From Prevotellaceae bacterium (GTDB lineage Bacteria > Bacteroidota > Bacteroidia > Bacteroidales > UBA932), in contig JAISGH010000047.1 of the NCBI GenBank assembly GCA_031263185.1, positions 1-36,245 of the forward strand: DNA of 36,245 nt, in the 5' to 3' direction. This document shows, one piece after another, positions 7,428-36,103 of the stretch. The translations under genes and the position numbers were made by a program. The notes beneath the pieces were generated by a model, which was not told where the DNA came from, did not search any database, and saw only the letters and a list, made by a program, of their open reading frames with translations. The first letter of the stretch is position 1. The number at the start of each line of letters is the position of its first letter.

Positions 7428-7553
7428 TGCTACTGAGGTCGTTTTGTTAGATAAATTAGGTAAAAATGAGGGTTTCAGCTGCCCCTCATTCTATCTGTAC
7501 CCTAGCTACCGAGCTGCAAGCTATTTTCATAGCACCTCAAAAAAAGATTTAGC
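7428..7553 (+). repeat. Composite dispersed repeat A - spacer - B
   Basis: TGCTACTGAGGTCGTTTTGTTAGATAAATTAGGTAAAAATGAGGGTTTC (A), about 50 nt spacer, then TTTTCATAGCACCTCAAAAAAAGATTTAGCC (B). Same order in reverse complement at 35969-36103. Confidence 0.7.
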
Positions 7554-7640
7554 CCTTATTTTTGTAGCTATAAACACACCTCCTGCTTGGTAAGGTAGTA
7601 AGGTTGAAAAATGGCCATATTCTGCTATTCCGGCATAATG

Positions 7641-19945: not shown

Positions 19946-20108
19946 GTAAATGAGCCCCTCCCCAAAGATTTTTTTAATTTTTGGAATATACAACATTTGA
20001 GGTGCGCCGTAGCGTTGCAAAAATGCGTACCTTTGGCTTTCTGCTGCTTTGCCGATTTTTCGGGCAGAGAGCAAGCCGCCGGACATTAAAAATACTAAAC
20101 GCAGAGCA

Positions 20109-21371
20109 TTGAAGATTTTTGACATAGACCTTTGGTCGGAAATTTGGATAACCATTACGCGCAACAAAATGCGGAGCCTGCTCACAGGCTTTGGCGTGTT
20201 TTGGGGTATCTTTATGCTCGTCGTCATGCTTGGCTCGGGCGTGGCGCTGGAAACCGGCATCTCGAAAAACGTGGAGGGCTTTGCGACCAACACCGCCTTT
20301 TTCTTTACCGAAAGAACCGGAAAGCCGTTTAAGGGATTTCGCAAGGGGCGCAGCTGGGATATGCACAACAGCGATATTGAAGTAATTCGCAAAACGGCGG
20401 AAGGCGTACGCTACGTTTCGCCCATACTCTTTGGCGGACGCGCCGAGGGCAACGTGGTGTACAACGACAGGGCCGGCGCCTACAACGTGCGCGGCGTGTA
20501 CCCCGACTACGCTAAAGTAGAGCAGCAGCGCTACATCTTTGGCCGCTTTGTCAACGATGTGGACGTGCTGCACAAGCGAAAGGTGTGCGTTATCGGGACG
20601 CGCGTATACGAAGAGTTTTTCCGAAAGGGCGAAGACCCCATTGGGCAGCAAATCCGCGTAAAGGGCATCTACTTCCAGATAGTTGGCGTTGTGGACGGCG
20701 TTTCGGGGATACAGATTGGCGGGCGATCGTCCGAAACGGTAGCCGTTCCGTTCTCGACCTTTCAGCAAGCCTACAATCAGGGCGACAGGGTGCACTTCCT
20801 GGGCATTACCGCCAAAGATGGCGTCAACATTGAGCAAGTGGAGCAGGAGGTAAAGGCAATCCTGCGGGCGCAAAACAAAATTGCCCCCGACGACGAGCAG
20901 GCTACGGGCAGCTTCAACGTATCGCGCATGTTCAACATGTTCAGCGCGCTGTTCTTGGGCGTTCGGACGCTGGTGTGGTTTGTGGGCGTCGGGACGCTGC
21001 TGGCGGGCATAGTGGGCGTGAGCAACATTATGGTGGTAACGGTGCGCGAGCGTACGCGCGAAATTGGCGTAAGGCGCGCGCTGGGCGCCAAGCCCTCAAA
21101 AATCGTTACGCAAATTCTCACCGAGAGCTTGCTGCTTACCTCCCTTGCCGGCTTGCTGGGGCTGAGCGTGGGCGTGGGGCTGCTGAGCGTTGTGGATACT
21201 CTTTTGTCGGCCAACGCCAACCCCGATATGTTTTTTCTCCACCCGCACATTGAGTTTGGGTCGGCAGTAACAGCCTCGGTAATACTGCTGCTGAGCGGCG
21301 TAATGGCCGGCATAATCCCAACATGGCGCGCGCTCAAAATAAAAGCAATTGACGCAATCAGGGAAGAATGA
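20109..21371 (+). CDS. ABC transporter permease, MacB/FtsX-like
   Basis: MKIFDIDLWSEIWITITRNKMRSLLTGFGVFWGIFMLVVMLGSG, MacB-like periplasmic core, and C-terminal TREIGVRRALGAKPSKIVTQILTESLLLT. Likely TTG start at 20109 (ORF track gives 20049). Confidence 0.88.
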   Translation: MKIFDIDLWSEIWITITRNKMRSLLTGFGVFWGIFMLVVMLGSGVALETGISKNVEGFATNTAFFFTERTGKPFKGFRKGRSWDMHNSDIEVIRKTAEGVRYVSPILFGGRAEGNVVYNDRAGAYNVRGVYPDYAKVEQQRYIFGRFVNDVDVLHKRKVCVIGTRVYEEFFRKGEDPIGQQIRVKGIYFQIVGVVDGVSGIQIGGRSSETVAVPFSTFQQAYNQGDRVHFLGITAKDGVNIEQVEQEVKAILRAQNKIAPDDEQATGSFNVSRMFNMFSALFLGVRTLVWFVGVGTLLAGIVGVSNIMVVTVRERTREIGVRRALGAKPSKIVTQILTESLLLTSLAGLLGLSVGVGLLSVVDTLLSANANPDMFFLHPHIEFGSAVTASVILLLSGVMAGIIPTWRALKIKAIDAIREE

Positions 21372-21379
21372 AAAATAGC

Positions 21380-22536
21380 GGATTAAATCTTTTTTTGAGG
21401 CGCTATGATAAAAGTTAGGTAAAAGATATTTTTTTGCATGGTATAGCAAAAAAATTATATTTAAAACGTGAAATTAAAAAAGTAAAGCCATGAAACGTGA
21501 ACGGGTACTGATATCTTTTGACTATGCATTAAAGCGTTTACTGCGCAACAAGGCAAACTATGAGGTTTTGGAAGGATTTTTGAGCGAGCTGCTTTCAAAA
21601 AATGTTTCGGTAAAGAATATCGGCGAGGGCGAGAGCAACAAGGAAAATCCGAATGACAAGCACAACAGAGTGGATATTTTGGTGGAAGACGAATCCGGCG
21701 AAATCTTGCTGATAGAGTTGCAGTTTAGGCATCAGATAGATTTTTTGCACCGCATGCTTTTCGGGACAAGCAAAACGATAAGCGAGCGTATAGTTCAGGG
21801 AGAGGAGTATATGCAGGTGAAGAAAGTCTACTCGATAAACATCGTCTATTTCGACATTGGACAGGGAGCCGATTACGTTTATCACGGCAAAACACACTTC
21901 ATGGGCCTTCACAAAAATGACGAGCTTCATCTTTCCAGCGCCCAGCGCGAAATTTTCGGAAAGGAAACAGCCGCTGACATCTATCCGGAATACTACCTTT
22001 TGAAGGTAAATAGCTTTGACGATGTCGCAAAGGATACGCTTGACGAATGGATATATTTTTTAAAGCACAACGTCATCAAGGATGAGTTTAAAGCCAAGGG
22101 TATGGACAAGGCGCGCGAAGCGCTTAAGCGGGATAATCTTCCACCGGAAGAGCAGAAAGCTTACGATTACATGATGTATCAGCGCAGTGACGATTTGAGC
22201 GCCATTGCTTCATCAAAACTCGAAGGTAGAATAGAAGGCAGAGAAGAAGGCAGAGAAGAAGGCAGGATAGAGCGTGAAAAACTTGCGGAAGAACTCGAAA
22301 AAGAACGTAGAGAGCGTGAAGAGCGTGAAAAGGAAATCGAAAAAGAGCGTGAAGAGCGTAAGGAGCGTGAAAAGGAAATCGAAAAAGAGCGAGCCTATTT
22401 TCTTGCCGAAATTACCCGATTGAAGCAAAATGGAAAGTAATTTGTCAAAATACGAATTTCTTATTTTCCATACCTGAACGGTGTTTTATAAAATACTGTC
22501 CCGTTTTTACCATAGCACCCCAAAAAAGAATTAGCC
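21380..22536. repeat. Inverted B repeats bracketing the rpn gene
   Basis: GGATTAAATCTTTTTTTGAGGCGCTATGATAAAA (21380-21413) and reverse complement of TTTTACCATAGCACCCCAAAAAAGAATTAGCC (about 22505-22536). Confidence 0.6.
21490..22440 (+). CDS. Rpn family PD-(D/E)XK nuclease / putative transposase with charged coiled-coil C-terminus
   Basis: 316 aa. NRVDILVEDESGEILLIELQ nuclease core, FLHRMLFGTSKTISERIVQGEEYMQVKKVYSINIV, and a C-terminal EGREEGREEG / EREKEIEKE repeat tract. Confidence 0.85.
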   Translation: MKRERVLISFDYALKRLLRNKANYEVLEGFLSELLSKNVSVKNIGEGESNKENPNDKHNRVDILVEDESGEILLIELQFRHQIDFLHRMLFGTSKTISERIVQGEEYMQVKKVYSINIVYFDIGQGADYVYHGKTHFMGLHKNDELHLSSAQREIFGKETAADIYPEYYLLKVNSFDDVAKDTLDEWIYFLKHNVIKDEFKAKGMDKAREALKRDNLPPEEQKAYDYMMYQRSDDLSAIASSKLEGRIEGREEGREEGRIEREKLAEELEKERREREEREKEIEKEREERKEREKEIEKERAYFLAEITRLKQNGK

Positions 22537-22556
22537 AATTTTTAAATTTTTGAATT

Positions 22557-23663
22557 ATGAAGCGATTTTTCCGTATTTTTCTCCTTGCCCTGTTGGGCTT
22601 GGTCGTGGTGTTTACCTTTGTTTTTCTGTGGAGAAAGTCAAGGCCCAAGGAAGTTGTGTACGAGGTTGTCGTACCCAGCGTTCGCACCATTGAAAATAAA
22701 ACGGTGGCCACCGGCACGGTTGAGCCTCGCGACGAGGTGCTCATTAAACCCCAAATTAACGGCATCATCTCGGAGCTCTACAAGGAGGCCGGCCAGCTCA
22801 TCAAAAGCGGAGAGGTGGTTGCCAAGGTGAAGGTCATCCCCGAAATGTCGCAGCTGAGCGACGCCGAGTCGAACGTGCGGCAGCAGGAAATCAACCTTGA
22901 GTACGTACAGCAGGTGTACGACCGCCAAAAAAAGCTCTACGAGCAGGGCGTAATTGCCAAAGAAGAATTTCAGAAAACGGCCACCGACCTCACCAGCCAG
23001 GAGGAGTCGCTTTCGCAGGCGCGGGACAGGCTGAGCATTATTCGCGATGGCATTTCCAAAAAATCATCCTCGTACAGCACTACGCAGGTGCGCTCTACCA
23101 TTACCGGTATGATTTTGAACGTACCCGTAAAGGTGGGCAACTCCGTTATACAGTCCAACACGTTCAACGAGGGCACCACCATTGCCGCCATTGCCGACAT
23201 GGGCGATATGATTTTCAAAGGGAAGGTAGACGAAACCGACGTGGGTAAGGTGCGCGAGGGTATGACCATTACGCTCACGGTGGGAGCCCTCGAAAACGTA
23301 AAGTTCAGCGCCAACCTTGAGTACATTTCGCCCAAAGGCGTAGAGGAAAACGGCGCAATAATGTTTGAAATAAAGGCTGCCGCCGAAATTCCAAAGGGCG
23401 TGTACGTGCGCGCAGGCTACAGCGCCAACGCCGAAATTGTGCTGAGCCGCGCCGACAGCGTGCTGAGCATTCCCGAAGGCTGCATTGAGTTCAGCAACGA
23501 CAGCGCATTTGTGCAGGTGCTCAAAGCCGAAACGCCCAAGCAGGAGTTTGAAAAGCGGTTTGTGACGGTGGGGCTTTCCGACGGCATCAACATGGAGGTG
23601 AAAGCCGGCTTGACCGAGGATGAGAAGGTGCGGGGAAATGAAAAAGTGGACAAAAAGAACTGA
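22557..23663 (+). CDS. HlyD/MacA-like efflux periplasmic adaptor subunit
   Basis: 368 aa. N-terminal TM, TVATGTVEPRDEVLIKPQINGIISELYKEAGQLIKSGEVVAKV (lipoyl-like), coiled coil, beta-barrel. Confidence 0.9.
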   Translation: MKRFFRIFLLALLGLVVVFTFVFLWRKSRPKEVVYEVVVPSVRTIENKTVATGTVEPRDEVLIKPQINGIISELYKEAGQLIKSGEVVAKVKVIPEMSQLSDAESNVRQQEINLEYVQQVYDRQKKLYEQGVIAKEEFQKTATDLTSQEESLSQARDRLSIIRDGISKKSSSYSTTQVRSTITGMILNVPVKVGNSVIQSNTFNEGTTIAAIADMGDMIFKGKVDETDVGKVREGMTITLTVGALENVKFSANLEYISPKGVEENGAIMFEIKAAAEIPKGVYVRAGYSANAEIVLSRADSVLSIPEGCIEFSNDSAFVQVLKAETPKQEFEKRFVTVGLSDGINMEVKAGLTEDEKVRGNEKVDKKN

Positions 23664-30843: not shown

Positions 30844-31053
30844 ATGACAAATAAACAAGATATAACAGTAGAGACCTCACCCCCGGCCCCTCTCCAAAGG
30901 AGAGGGGTGGCTGACGCCGAATATCGTGTCTCTGCTCCCCTCTCCTTTGGAGAGGGGCTGGGGGGTGAGGTCTCTACGACGAGCAGGTGTTACTTCCGCT
31001 ACGTCCCGCAGAGGCGACATTTTATTAACTGTTATATCTTGTTTATTTTTCAT
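30844..31053. repeat. Nested long inverted repeat
   Basis: Outer arms ATGACAAATAAACAAGATATAACAGT (30844-30869) / ACTGTTATATCTTGTTTATTTTTCAT (31028-31053), 25/26. Inner arms AGAGACCTCACCCCCGGCCCCTCTCCAAAGGAGAGGGG (30870-30907) / reverse complement (30937-30975) with one indel and one mismatch. Confidence 0.9.
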
Positions 31054-32483: not shown

Positions 32484-33398
32484 CTAAAACGCATAACCCA
32501 GAGAAATTCCTCCCGTAAGCCCGAAGGAGCTGATTGTGTACATGGGCGTGAGCCCGATGCGAAGCAGAAAGCCTTCTGCCGGCTGATAGCGGTAGCCAAT
32601 GGTTGCCGTGCCAACAGTCCACCAAACGGCGCCTGATGTTGGGAGGCTTCCCTGCGCTGTTGCGCCTATTCCCAGCTCCAGGTGGCTGCGCCCGCTGCCT
32701 GTCAGGTAGTAAAGGCTAACAGGTACCATAGCCGCCGTAACGCCAAAAATACCAATGTAACCCATCCCCACAGAAGCGCCCAGCCCGCTCTTGCCTACAA
32801 CAAAATGGCAATCGTAGTTCACTGAGTATAGTAGCGGTGTTCGTCCAAAAAGCTCAAAATATACTGCTTGCTGAAATCGGGGACGGGTTTCCTCTTTTTC
32901 CCGATTTTTTATGGCCTGTAGCTTAGCCGAAAGCTTGGACTTGACGCTTGCCGGGCTAACAGGAACAAAAATCCCTGCCTGAAACATTGGCAGCACTTCC
33001 CCTCTTTTTTGCTCTCCGCTTTCGGACAGGAATGTTCCCAGCCCAGCCCCCGCCTGAAACCATTTTTTGTAGCGGTAAACGTACATTACGCCAAGAATAT
33101 CAAAATTCTCTTTACCGCCAATTTGATGCCAGTACTGTAGCGAAACGAAAGGCGAGTTGATGCGCGGCTTCAGGTGGTAGCTGACGCCTGCGCCAAAGCT
33201 CAGCAAGCCTGCACCCGCCTGCACACTCCAGCGGTTTTTGGCAAACAGGTACTCCACATCGGCGCCAAGCGAAGCGCCGCCGCCCATAAAAAAACCGGCG
33301 TTCACCGCCATGCTGGGCGATTTGGCGCTGTCCTGCTGCCCCAGCGCAACGGCGGGCAGCCAAAGCAAAAATAAAAGGATACAAAAAAATGGTTTCAT
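32484..33398 (-). CDS. Outer-membrane beta-barrel protein (paralogue 1)
   Basis: 304 aa. Signal peptide; shares the MGGGxxxGADVEYLFAKNRWxxQxGAGLxSFGAGxxYHLKPRINS unit with the neighbouring ORF. Confidence 0.75.
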   Translation of the reverse strand: MKPFFCILLFLLWLPAVALGQQDSAKSPSMAVNAGFFMGGGASLGADVEYLFAKNRWSVQAGAGLLSFGAGVSYHLKPRINSPFVSLQYWHQIGGKENFDILGVMYVYRYKKWFQAGAGLGTFLSESGEQKRGEVLPMFQAGIFVPVSPASVKSKLSAKLQAIKNREKEETRPRFQQAVYFELFGRTPLLYSVNYDCHFVVGKSGLGASVGMGYIGIFGVTAAMVPVSLYYLTGSGRSHLELGIGATAQGSLPTSGAVWWTVGTATIGYRYQPAEGFLLRIGLTPMYTISSFGLTGGISLGYAF

Positions 33399-33439
33399 CG
33401 GATGTCAACAGATTTCAGATTTCAAAATTCAAAAATACG

Positions 33440-34318
33440 CTACCACGGGAAGTACGCGCCAATGTTGAACAGCCAGTAGTACTTGTACTTTTCCGAAGCG
33501 TAAACATCCGCGCCGTGGTAAAGCGCGTAGCTAAGGCCCAGCCCAGCCTGAAAATATTTCGGAGCCCTATAGACAAGCAGGGGGCCAGCCATAATAGTAG
33601 CGCCGCCGGGTTGCCAAAGTTGCCAATGCCAATACTGCACCGACGCAAACGAAGAGTTGATGCTCGGCTTGAGATGGCAGTTAACGCCTGCGCTAACCCC
33701 TTTTAACCCCGCGCCCGCCTGCGCTCCCCAGCGGCTGCCGGAAACAAGGTATTCAACGTCGGCACCCAAAGACCCACCTCCCATACCAACGCCAACGCTA
33801 ACCGCCTTGTTCTTTTGCGAACTTGCCGATGCCTCTTCTGAGGGTGGACTTGTGAATCGCTTAGAGGAAAACGGAAGGTAGCTGCCAACGTTGAACAGTG
33901 GTACCGGCATTCCGCCCAATCCTGTAAAGTAGCCTTGGGGGAGGGCAATACCGCAGCCTACCCCTGCCTGAAAAGACTTTGTACGAAAAACAAACATGGG
34001 CGCAATAAACGACATTTGTACAAAGGGAGCAAGCCACATTTCCCAGTACTGCACAGAGATGAACGAAGAGTTAATGCGCGGCTTCAGGTGGTAGTTGATA
34101 CCTGCGCCAAAGCTGATAAGCCCCGCGCCCACCTGCACGCCCCAGCGGTTTTTGGCAAACAGGTACTCCACATCGGCGCCGTACATAGCGCCACCACCCA
34201 TAAGAAACCCCCTGTTTACCGCCATGTTGGGCAACCTTTGCGGTTGTAGCGTACTATCTACCTCTCCGTATAAGGAAACAGATAACAATATGAATATCGA
34301 AAATATCAGCCATTTCAT
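33440..34318 (-). CDS. Outer-membrane beta-barrel-like protein with two internal repeat units (paralogue 2)
   Basis: 292 aa. Residues about 33-151 and 172-292 repeat each other (GADVEYL...RWG.Q.GAGL...HLKP.INSSF.SVQYW...FQAG.G..). Confidence 0.75.
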   Translation of the reverse strand: MKWLIFSIFILLSVSLYGEVDSTLQPQRLPNMAVNRGFLMGGGAMYGADVEYLFAKNRWGVQVGAGLISFGAGINYHLKPRINSSFISVQYWEMWLAPFVQMSFIAPMFVFRTKSFQAGVGCGIALPQGYFTGLGGMPVPLFNVGSYLPFSSKRFTSPPSEEASASSQKNKAVSVGVGMGGGSLGADVEYLVSGSRWGAQAGAGLKGVSAGVNCHLKPSINSSFASVQYWHWQLWQPGGATIMAGPLLVYRAPKYFQAGLGLSYALYHGADVYASEKYKYYWLFNIGAYFPW

Positions 34319-35968: not shown

Positions 35969-36103
35969 GGCTAAATTTTTTTTTTGAGGTGCTATGAAAA
36001 TTTCATTCTGAGTCTTTCCCTCCTCTCTCCCACTGTCATTCTTGCGAAAGTTTGAAACCTCATTTTCACCTAATTTCTTCTAACAAAACAACCTCAGTAG
36101 CAA
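35969..36103 (-). repeat. Composite dispersed repeat A - spacer - B (second copy, reverse orientation)
   Basis: GGCTAAATTTTTTTTTTGAGGTGCTATGAAAA (35969-36000) ... GAAACCTCATTTTCACCTAATTTCTTCTAACAAAACAACCTCAGTAGCAA (36054-36103). Confidence 0.7.

Follow-up and report, generated by a model that had tools for sequence, protein, structure and literature searches.

The rpn gene of the window, the 36,245-nucleotide stretch of a Prevotellaceae contig analysed here, lies between two inward-facing arms of a repeat, termed B, which sequence comparison identifies as the terminal inverted repeat of an ISL3-family, ISAon1-type insertion sequence and not as an end belonging to Rpn. On comparison with related genomes, the rpn segment is a lineage-specific, horizontally acquired gain at the junction between a permease gene and an adaptor gene. 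The reading adopted here, with a probability of roughly 0.5, is that rpn is a passenger in a unit resembling a mobile insertion cassette, held between ISL3-type ends and now immobile. Whether rpn travelled between the arms or was bracketed by coincidence is about even, coincidence being nearly as likely.

The left flank of the segment is the 3' end of a gene for a MacB/FtsX-type ABC permease (20049..21371, + strand; PF12704, MacB_PCD, E=4.8e-32; PF02687, FtsX, E=2.5e-19) and the right flank is a gene for a periplasmic adaptor of the MacA/HlyD type (HlyD/RND_mfp; 22557..23663, + strand; TIGR01730, E=1.8e-37), as the original prediction had named them. The sole complete gene between the two B arms is rpn (21490..22440, + strand), which encodes a PD-(D/E)XK recombination-promoting nuclease of 316 aa with matches to PF12784 (E=6.3e-26) and TIGR01784 (E=2.5e-18) above the curated cut-offs (91.9 bits compared to 27.4, and 66.8 compared to 52.1, respectively). 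The left arm (21380..21411, - strand, with its interior to the right) reads GGATTAAATCTTTTTTTGAGGCGCTATGATAA and ends approximately 80 bp upstream of the rpn start, and the right arm (22507..22538, + strand; reverse complement GGCTAATTCTTTTTTGGGGTGCTATGGTAAAA) starts approximately 70 bp past the rpn stop, so that the arms face each other 1.14 kb apart. Compared with the left arm, the right arm is one A shorter and has CCC in place of CTC, giving the variant GGCTAATTC, which resembles the right end of the insertion sequence copy L247 described below. The 21-base B core had four matches in the window at up to three mismatches and none in 100 shuffles, and the bracketing of rpn by two inward arms is not a product of chance sequence matches. 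The predicted arrangement of an inverted repeat after the permease, another before the adaptor and only rpn between them was therefore confirmed. The accompanying remark that no target duplication is obvious also held, as no 8-bp duplication surrounds the rpn unit, the left flank ending in AATAGCG and the right flank reading AATTTTTA.

The origin of the B ends was indicated by two contig ends that carry the C-terminus of an ISAon1/ISL3 transposase with the stop codon inside a B arm. When the genomes containing such loci were searched, L247 was found, a 1539 bp element in a further termite-gut Bacteroidales genome, G429 ('Bacteroidales bacterium isolate Kf353_bin88'), with both transposase ORFs between two B arms. 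The 17-base core is perfect in the two arms, each of which has a single mismatch further outwards. The first ORF (1119-1505, 128 aa) matched NF049916 (ISAon1_upstream, E=4.5e-14) slightly under the cut-off. The second (1540-2496, 318 aa) matched PF01610 (E=1.2e-44) and, under the cut-off, NF049917 (E=1.5e-40), this DDE protein scoring below the NCBIfam cut-offs of both ISAon1_downstr and ISL3. The stop codon lies within the right B arm of L247, and the best alignments placed the left arm of the window on the left end of L247 and the right arm on its right end. The L247 element itself has no target duplication. The assignment of B to an ISL3/ISAon1-type terminal repeat is drawn from the position of the L247 ORFs between B arms together with 8-bp duplications in the B family, such as are documented for an ISL3 transposon (PMC9782665). 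The rpn unit shares with insertion sequences of this type (NF049916 with NF049917, PF01610) a terminal repeat core that is nearly identical to both B arms, and B-ended elements also share the 8-bp duplications and, in L247, the two-ORF layout with a stop in the right arm; the rpn unit differs in having no DDE_Tnp_ISL3 transposase between its ends and no 8-bp target duplication.

No ISL3 transposase was found in the assembly of the window itself using PF01610 and NF049917, and a 40-aa query from the transposase C-terminus had no match in the window genome. This assembly is 87% complete and MAGs often lose repeats, so the missing transposase carries little weight. A pattern combining the transposase end with B gave no match in 393 genomes of the order, which is attributed to the small number of close kin in that sample. 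No relatives of the transposase were found among viral contigs, and in more distant kin (G017, G040, G042, G043 and G016) the ISAon1-type transposases had no B ending. In VGGL01, a MAG from a lake sample, four short contig edges (L091, L099, L153 and L170) are identical, each ending in B and followed on the inside by an ATG frame, MEKKDVKSLLAPQEIIEKF; they probably represent the left end of a further ISL3-type element from outside termite guts.

The B family is abundant in the window genome, with approximately 160 arms (80 forward and 86 reverse; 17-base core, up to three mismatches) compared to 10 and 14 for the same pattern reversed. Many of these arms terminate ORF-free units of approximately 380 bp with the layout B'-A'-core-A-B and others stand alone. 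Within 1.07 Mb of contigs from this genome, scanned by mismatches, 125 B arms were found compared to 4 for the control; these made up 23 complete pairs, and of the 79 arms left unpaired 75 were in intergenic DNA. Exact 8-bp duplications were present at 6 of the 39 B-ended units with both ends clear, where 0.14 would be expected from shuffles, and an exact duplication of any other tested length was seen only once. Being short and ORF-free, with insertion-sequence-type terminal repeats and target duplications, the A-B units are MITEs, an element of approximately 380 bp in its own right. The rpn unit is unlike them in holding a gene and no MITE interior. Two A-B MITEs are represented in the window by one half only, at 7428..7554 (+ strand) and, inverted, at 35970..36102 (- strand). 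In other Bacteroidales MAGs the same B arm was found on units whose insides are quite different; the termite-gut origin of these MAGs is suggested by their isolate codes and not by a record field. The family is common in termite-gut Bacteroidales.

Several further repeats and B-flanked sequences were observed. A stand-alone A'-A inverted unit of approximately 158 bp without B arms is present at positions 911-1068 of the window, which suggests that the B element contains A as a smaller, nested element. A second nested inverted repeat, at 30844-31053, has outer arms ATGACAAATAAACAAGATATAACAGT and inner G+C-rich arms that begin CCCCTCTCC. Sequence resembling GTTATATCTTGTTTATTT is also found beside other elements (L015) and, in degenerate form, in the permease-adaptor gap of G010, and its recurrence at other sites makes a second interspersed family likely. 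Neighbouring paralogous genes at 32484-34318 contain 190-nt repeats at 62-81% identity. Elsewhere, inward B pairs surround a DinD-like ORF (L323, 15955-16961; by eye, no Pfam match), a PF18762 kinase fragment (L326, 55-868) and a 484-aa protein that is transposase-like by eye (L264, 12234-14606), and in L168 (JAISQD010000083.1) the B arm directly abuts the end of an ORF on its inner side, a possible captured gene.

The original prediction viewed rpn as the transposase of a 1.16-kb B-ended mobile element, with the solo B and A-B repeats as its possible non-autonomous derivatives. In favour of this reading are the arrangement itself and the label 'putative transposase' that TIGR01784 has in the database, but it is now very improbable and largely refuted. 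The B ends belong to an ISL3/ISAon1 element, the A-B units are a separate element, and B-ended units occur in many genomes with insides unrelated to rpn. No bracketing B arms were found at the nine other PF12784 places in the window genome or at other rpn loci in the relatives; the rpn genes of G011 and G035 have a B arm nearby, yet rpn lies on its outer side. Published work has found no transposition by rpn genes and holds that they are not transposases (PMC10327210). Two of the three observations named in advance as refuting rpn as the element's own gene, other rpn genes without B repeats and B repeats around unrelated genes, were thus made. What stands of the proposed mobile element is that its arms are genuine transposon terminal repeats and that the segment was gained in one lineage; Rpn as the mobilising enzyme does not.

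The permease-adaptor junction carries rpn and the left arm in the window genome (G000) and in its sister G005, and the rpn segment is absent from the same junction in eight relatives (G010, G009, G003, G001, G006, G008, G007 and G011). Empty sites had been proposed as a check, and with the site polymorphic the third refuting observation, an rpn fixed at this position, was not made. The left B arm is absent from the junction wherever rpn is missing. As read from the sequences, the homology shared with the empty G010 site stops within approximately 2 bp of the outer end of this arm. At the orthologous site of G005 (L171, G005:C48, reverse strand) rpn is tandemly duplicated. The duplication junction lies within the right B arm, where CATAGCGCCTCAA is joined to the permease 3' end with CAA microhomology, and the first rpn copy has a truncated right arm and the second copy none. 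The right end of the unit differs between the two genomes; since the right junction with the original DNA has been lost or altered in both lineages, the missing target duplication is not conclusive. No second copy of the rpn unit was found at any other locus in 61 genomes, and the inner flanks of its arms match solely this locus and that of G005. In G003 and G009 the same gap (L057, L058) contains unrelated genes, by eye for an S23/four-helix-bundle-like and a cupin-like protein, which marks the gap as a repeated insertion site.

The transposase-free B arm pairs of the window genome are mostly MITE ends, and rpn could have inserted into a B-ended MITE already in the gap, replacing its inside. 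This is improbable given that no remnant of a MITE interior (A arms, x/y segments) is left beside the rpn arms and that no B element is present in the gap of any relative lacking rpn.

A quite possible alternative is that ordinary recombination, the usual route for rpn genes, brought rpn into the gap, and that two separate B half-elements came to flank it, one on each side. The many unpaired, intergenic arms in the contigs examined mean that any gene is easily bracketed, and unrelated genes are bracketed too. Inward-facing pairs 0.7-1.5 kb apart numbered 3, with 0.5-1.0 expected by chance (P 0.01-0.08), and those 0.7-5 kb apart numbered 5, with 3-4 expected (P 0.18-0.35), a weak excess over chance. 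The unbracketed state of other rpn loci also favours coincidence, and both the missing duplication and the variation of the ends among relatives agree with what has been published on rpn (PMC10327210). It accounts less readily for inward arms within approximately 80 bp of both rpn ends, or for a left arm that is missing wherever rpn is missing and whose outer end is the insertion junction.

The Rpn protein itself resembles the published Rpn toxin-antitoxin and anti-phage genes, for which variable four-residue repeats, patchy distribution and tandem duplication are described (PMC10327210). It has the PF12784 domain, EGRE-type four-residue repeats at the C-terminus and a patchy presence, and the tandem duplication is found in the sister genome. 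The first Rpn copy of G005 is 99% identical to the window protein up to residue 244, past which it has one extra four-residue repeat and further changes; the variability of the repeats described for Rpn is therefore seen between the two orthologues. The published rule places the start of the antitoxin RpnS 8-20 residues from the repeats (PMC10327210). M228/M229 lies approximately 15 residues ahead of them, and the frame from M229 to the stop (22174..22440, + strand) is a predicted intragenic RpnS candidate. Searches of PADLOC and of PDB sequences with rpn gave no match. One difference is that the published rpn genes are reported without flanking inverted terminal repeats (PMC10327210), while the window rpn has them, though they are not its own.

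A mobile insertion cassette consists of insertion sequence ends around a passenger gene without a transposase, as in the qnrS2 cassette of pAC3 (PMC5444012). The rpn unit is similar in that its gene lies tightly between inward ends with no transposase, in its presence/absence polymorphism and, putatively, in a transposase supplied in trans. It is unlike such cassettes in having neither a target duplication nor several copies with the same ends, in occupying a single locus and in its movement being putative. Under the passenger reading, the swarm of short elements without a transposase in termite-gut Bacteroidales would be mobilised in trans by an ISAon1-type ISL3 insertion sequence, and an Rpn toxin-antitoxin or anti-phage gene would have come to lie between two B ends. 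An ISL3 transposase supplied in trans would have moved this unit, we infer as one piece via its arms, and the unit may have reached the gap between permease and adaptor in an ancestor shared by the window genome and G005. Later decay would then have rearranged the right flank in both lineages and duplicated rpn in tandem in G005. As the B arms are not its own, rpn is at best a former hitch-hiker, carried as a passenger in the past and no longer moving.

One terminal repeat, with apparently one type of ISL3 transposase behind it, is common to very different short elements in MAGs named as Prevotellaceae, Tannerellaceae and Dysgonamonadaceae. The spread of Rpn genes is thought to proceed via hitch-hiking on other elements. 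It is unlikely that single genes, whether of defence type or not, are regularly picked up and carried by ISL3/ISAon1-type ends as cassettes lacking a transposase in termite-gut Bacteroidales, although if true this would be a concrete hitch-hiking vehicle for Rpn genes that published surveys have missed. The rpn locus is a candidate vehicle of this kind that is open to testing, set against the reported lack of flanking repeats at rpn genes (PMC10327210).
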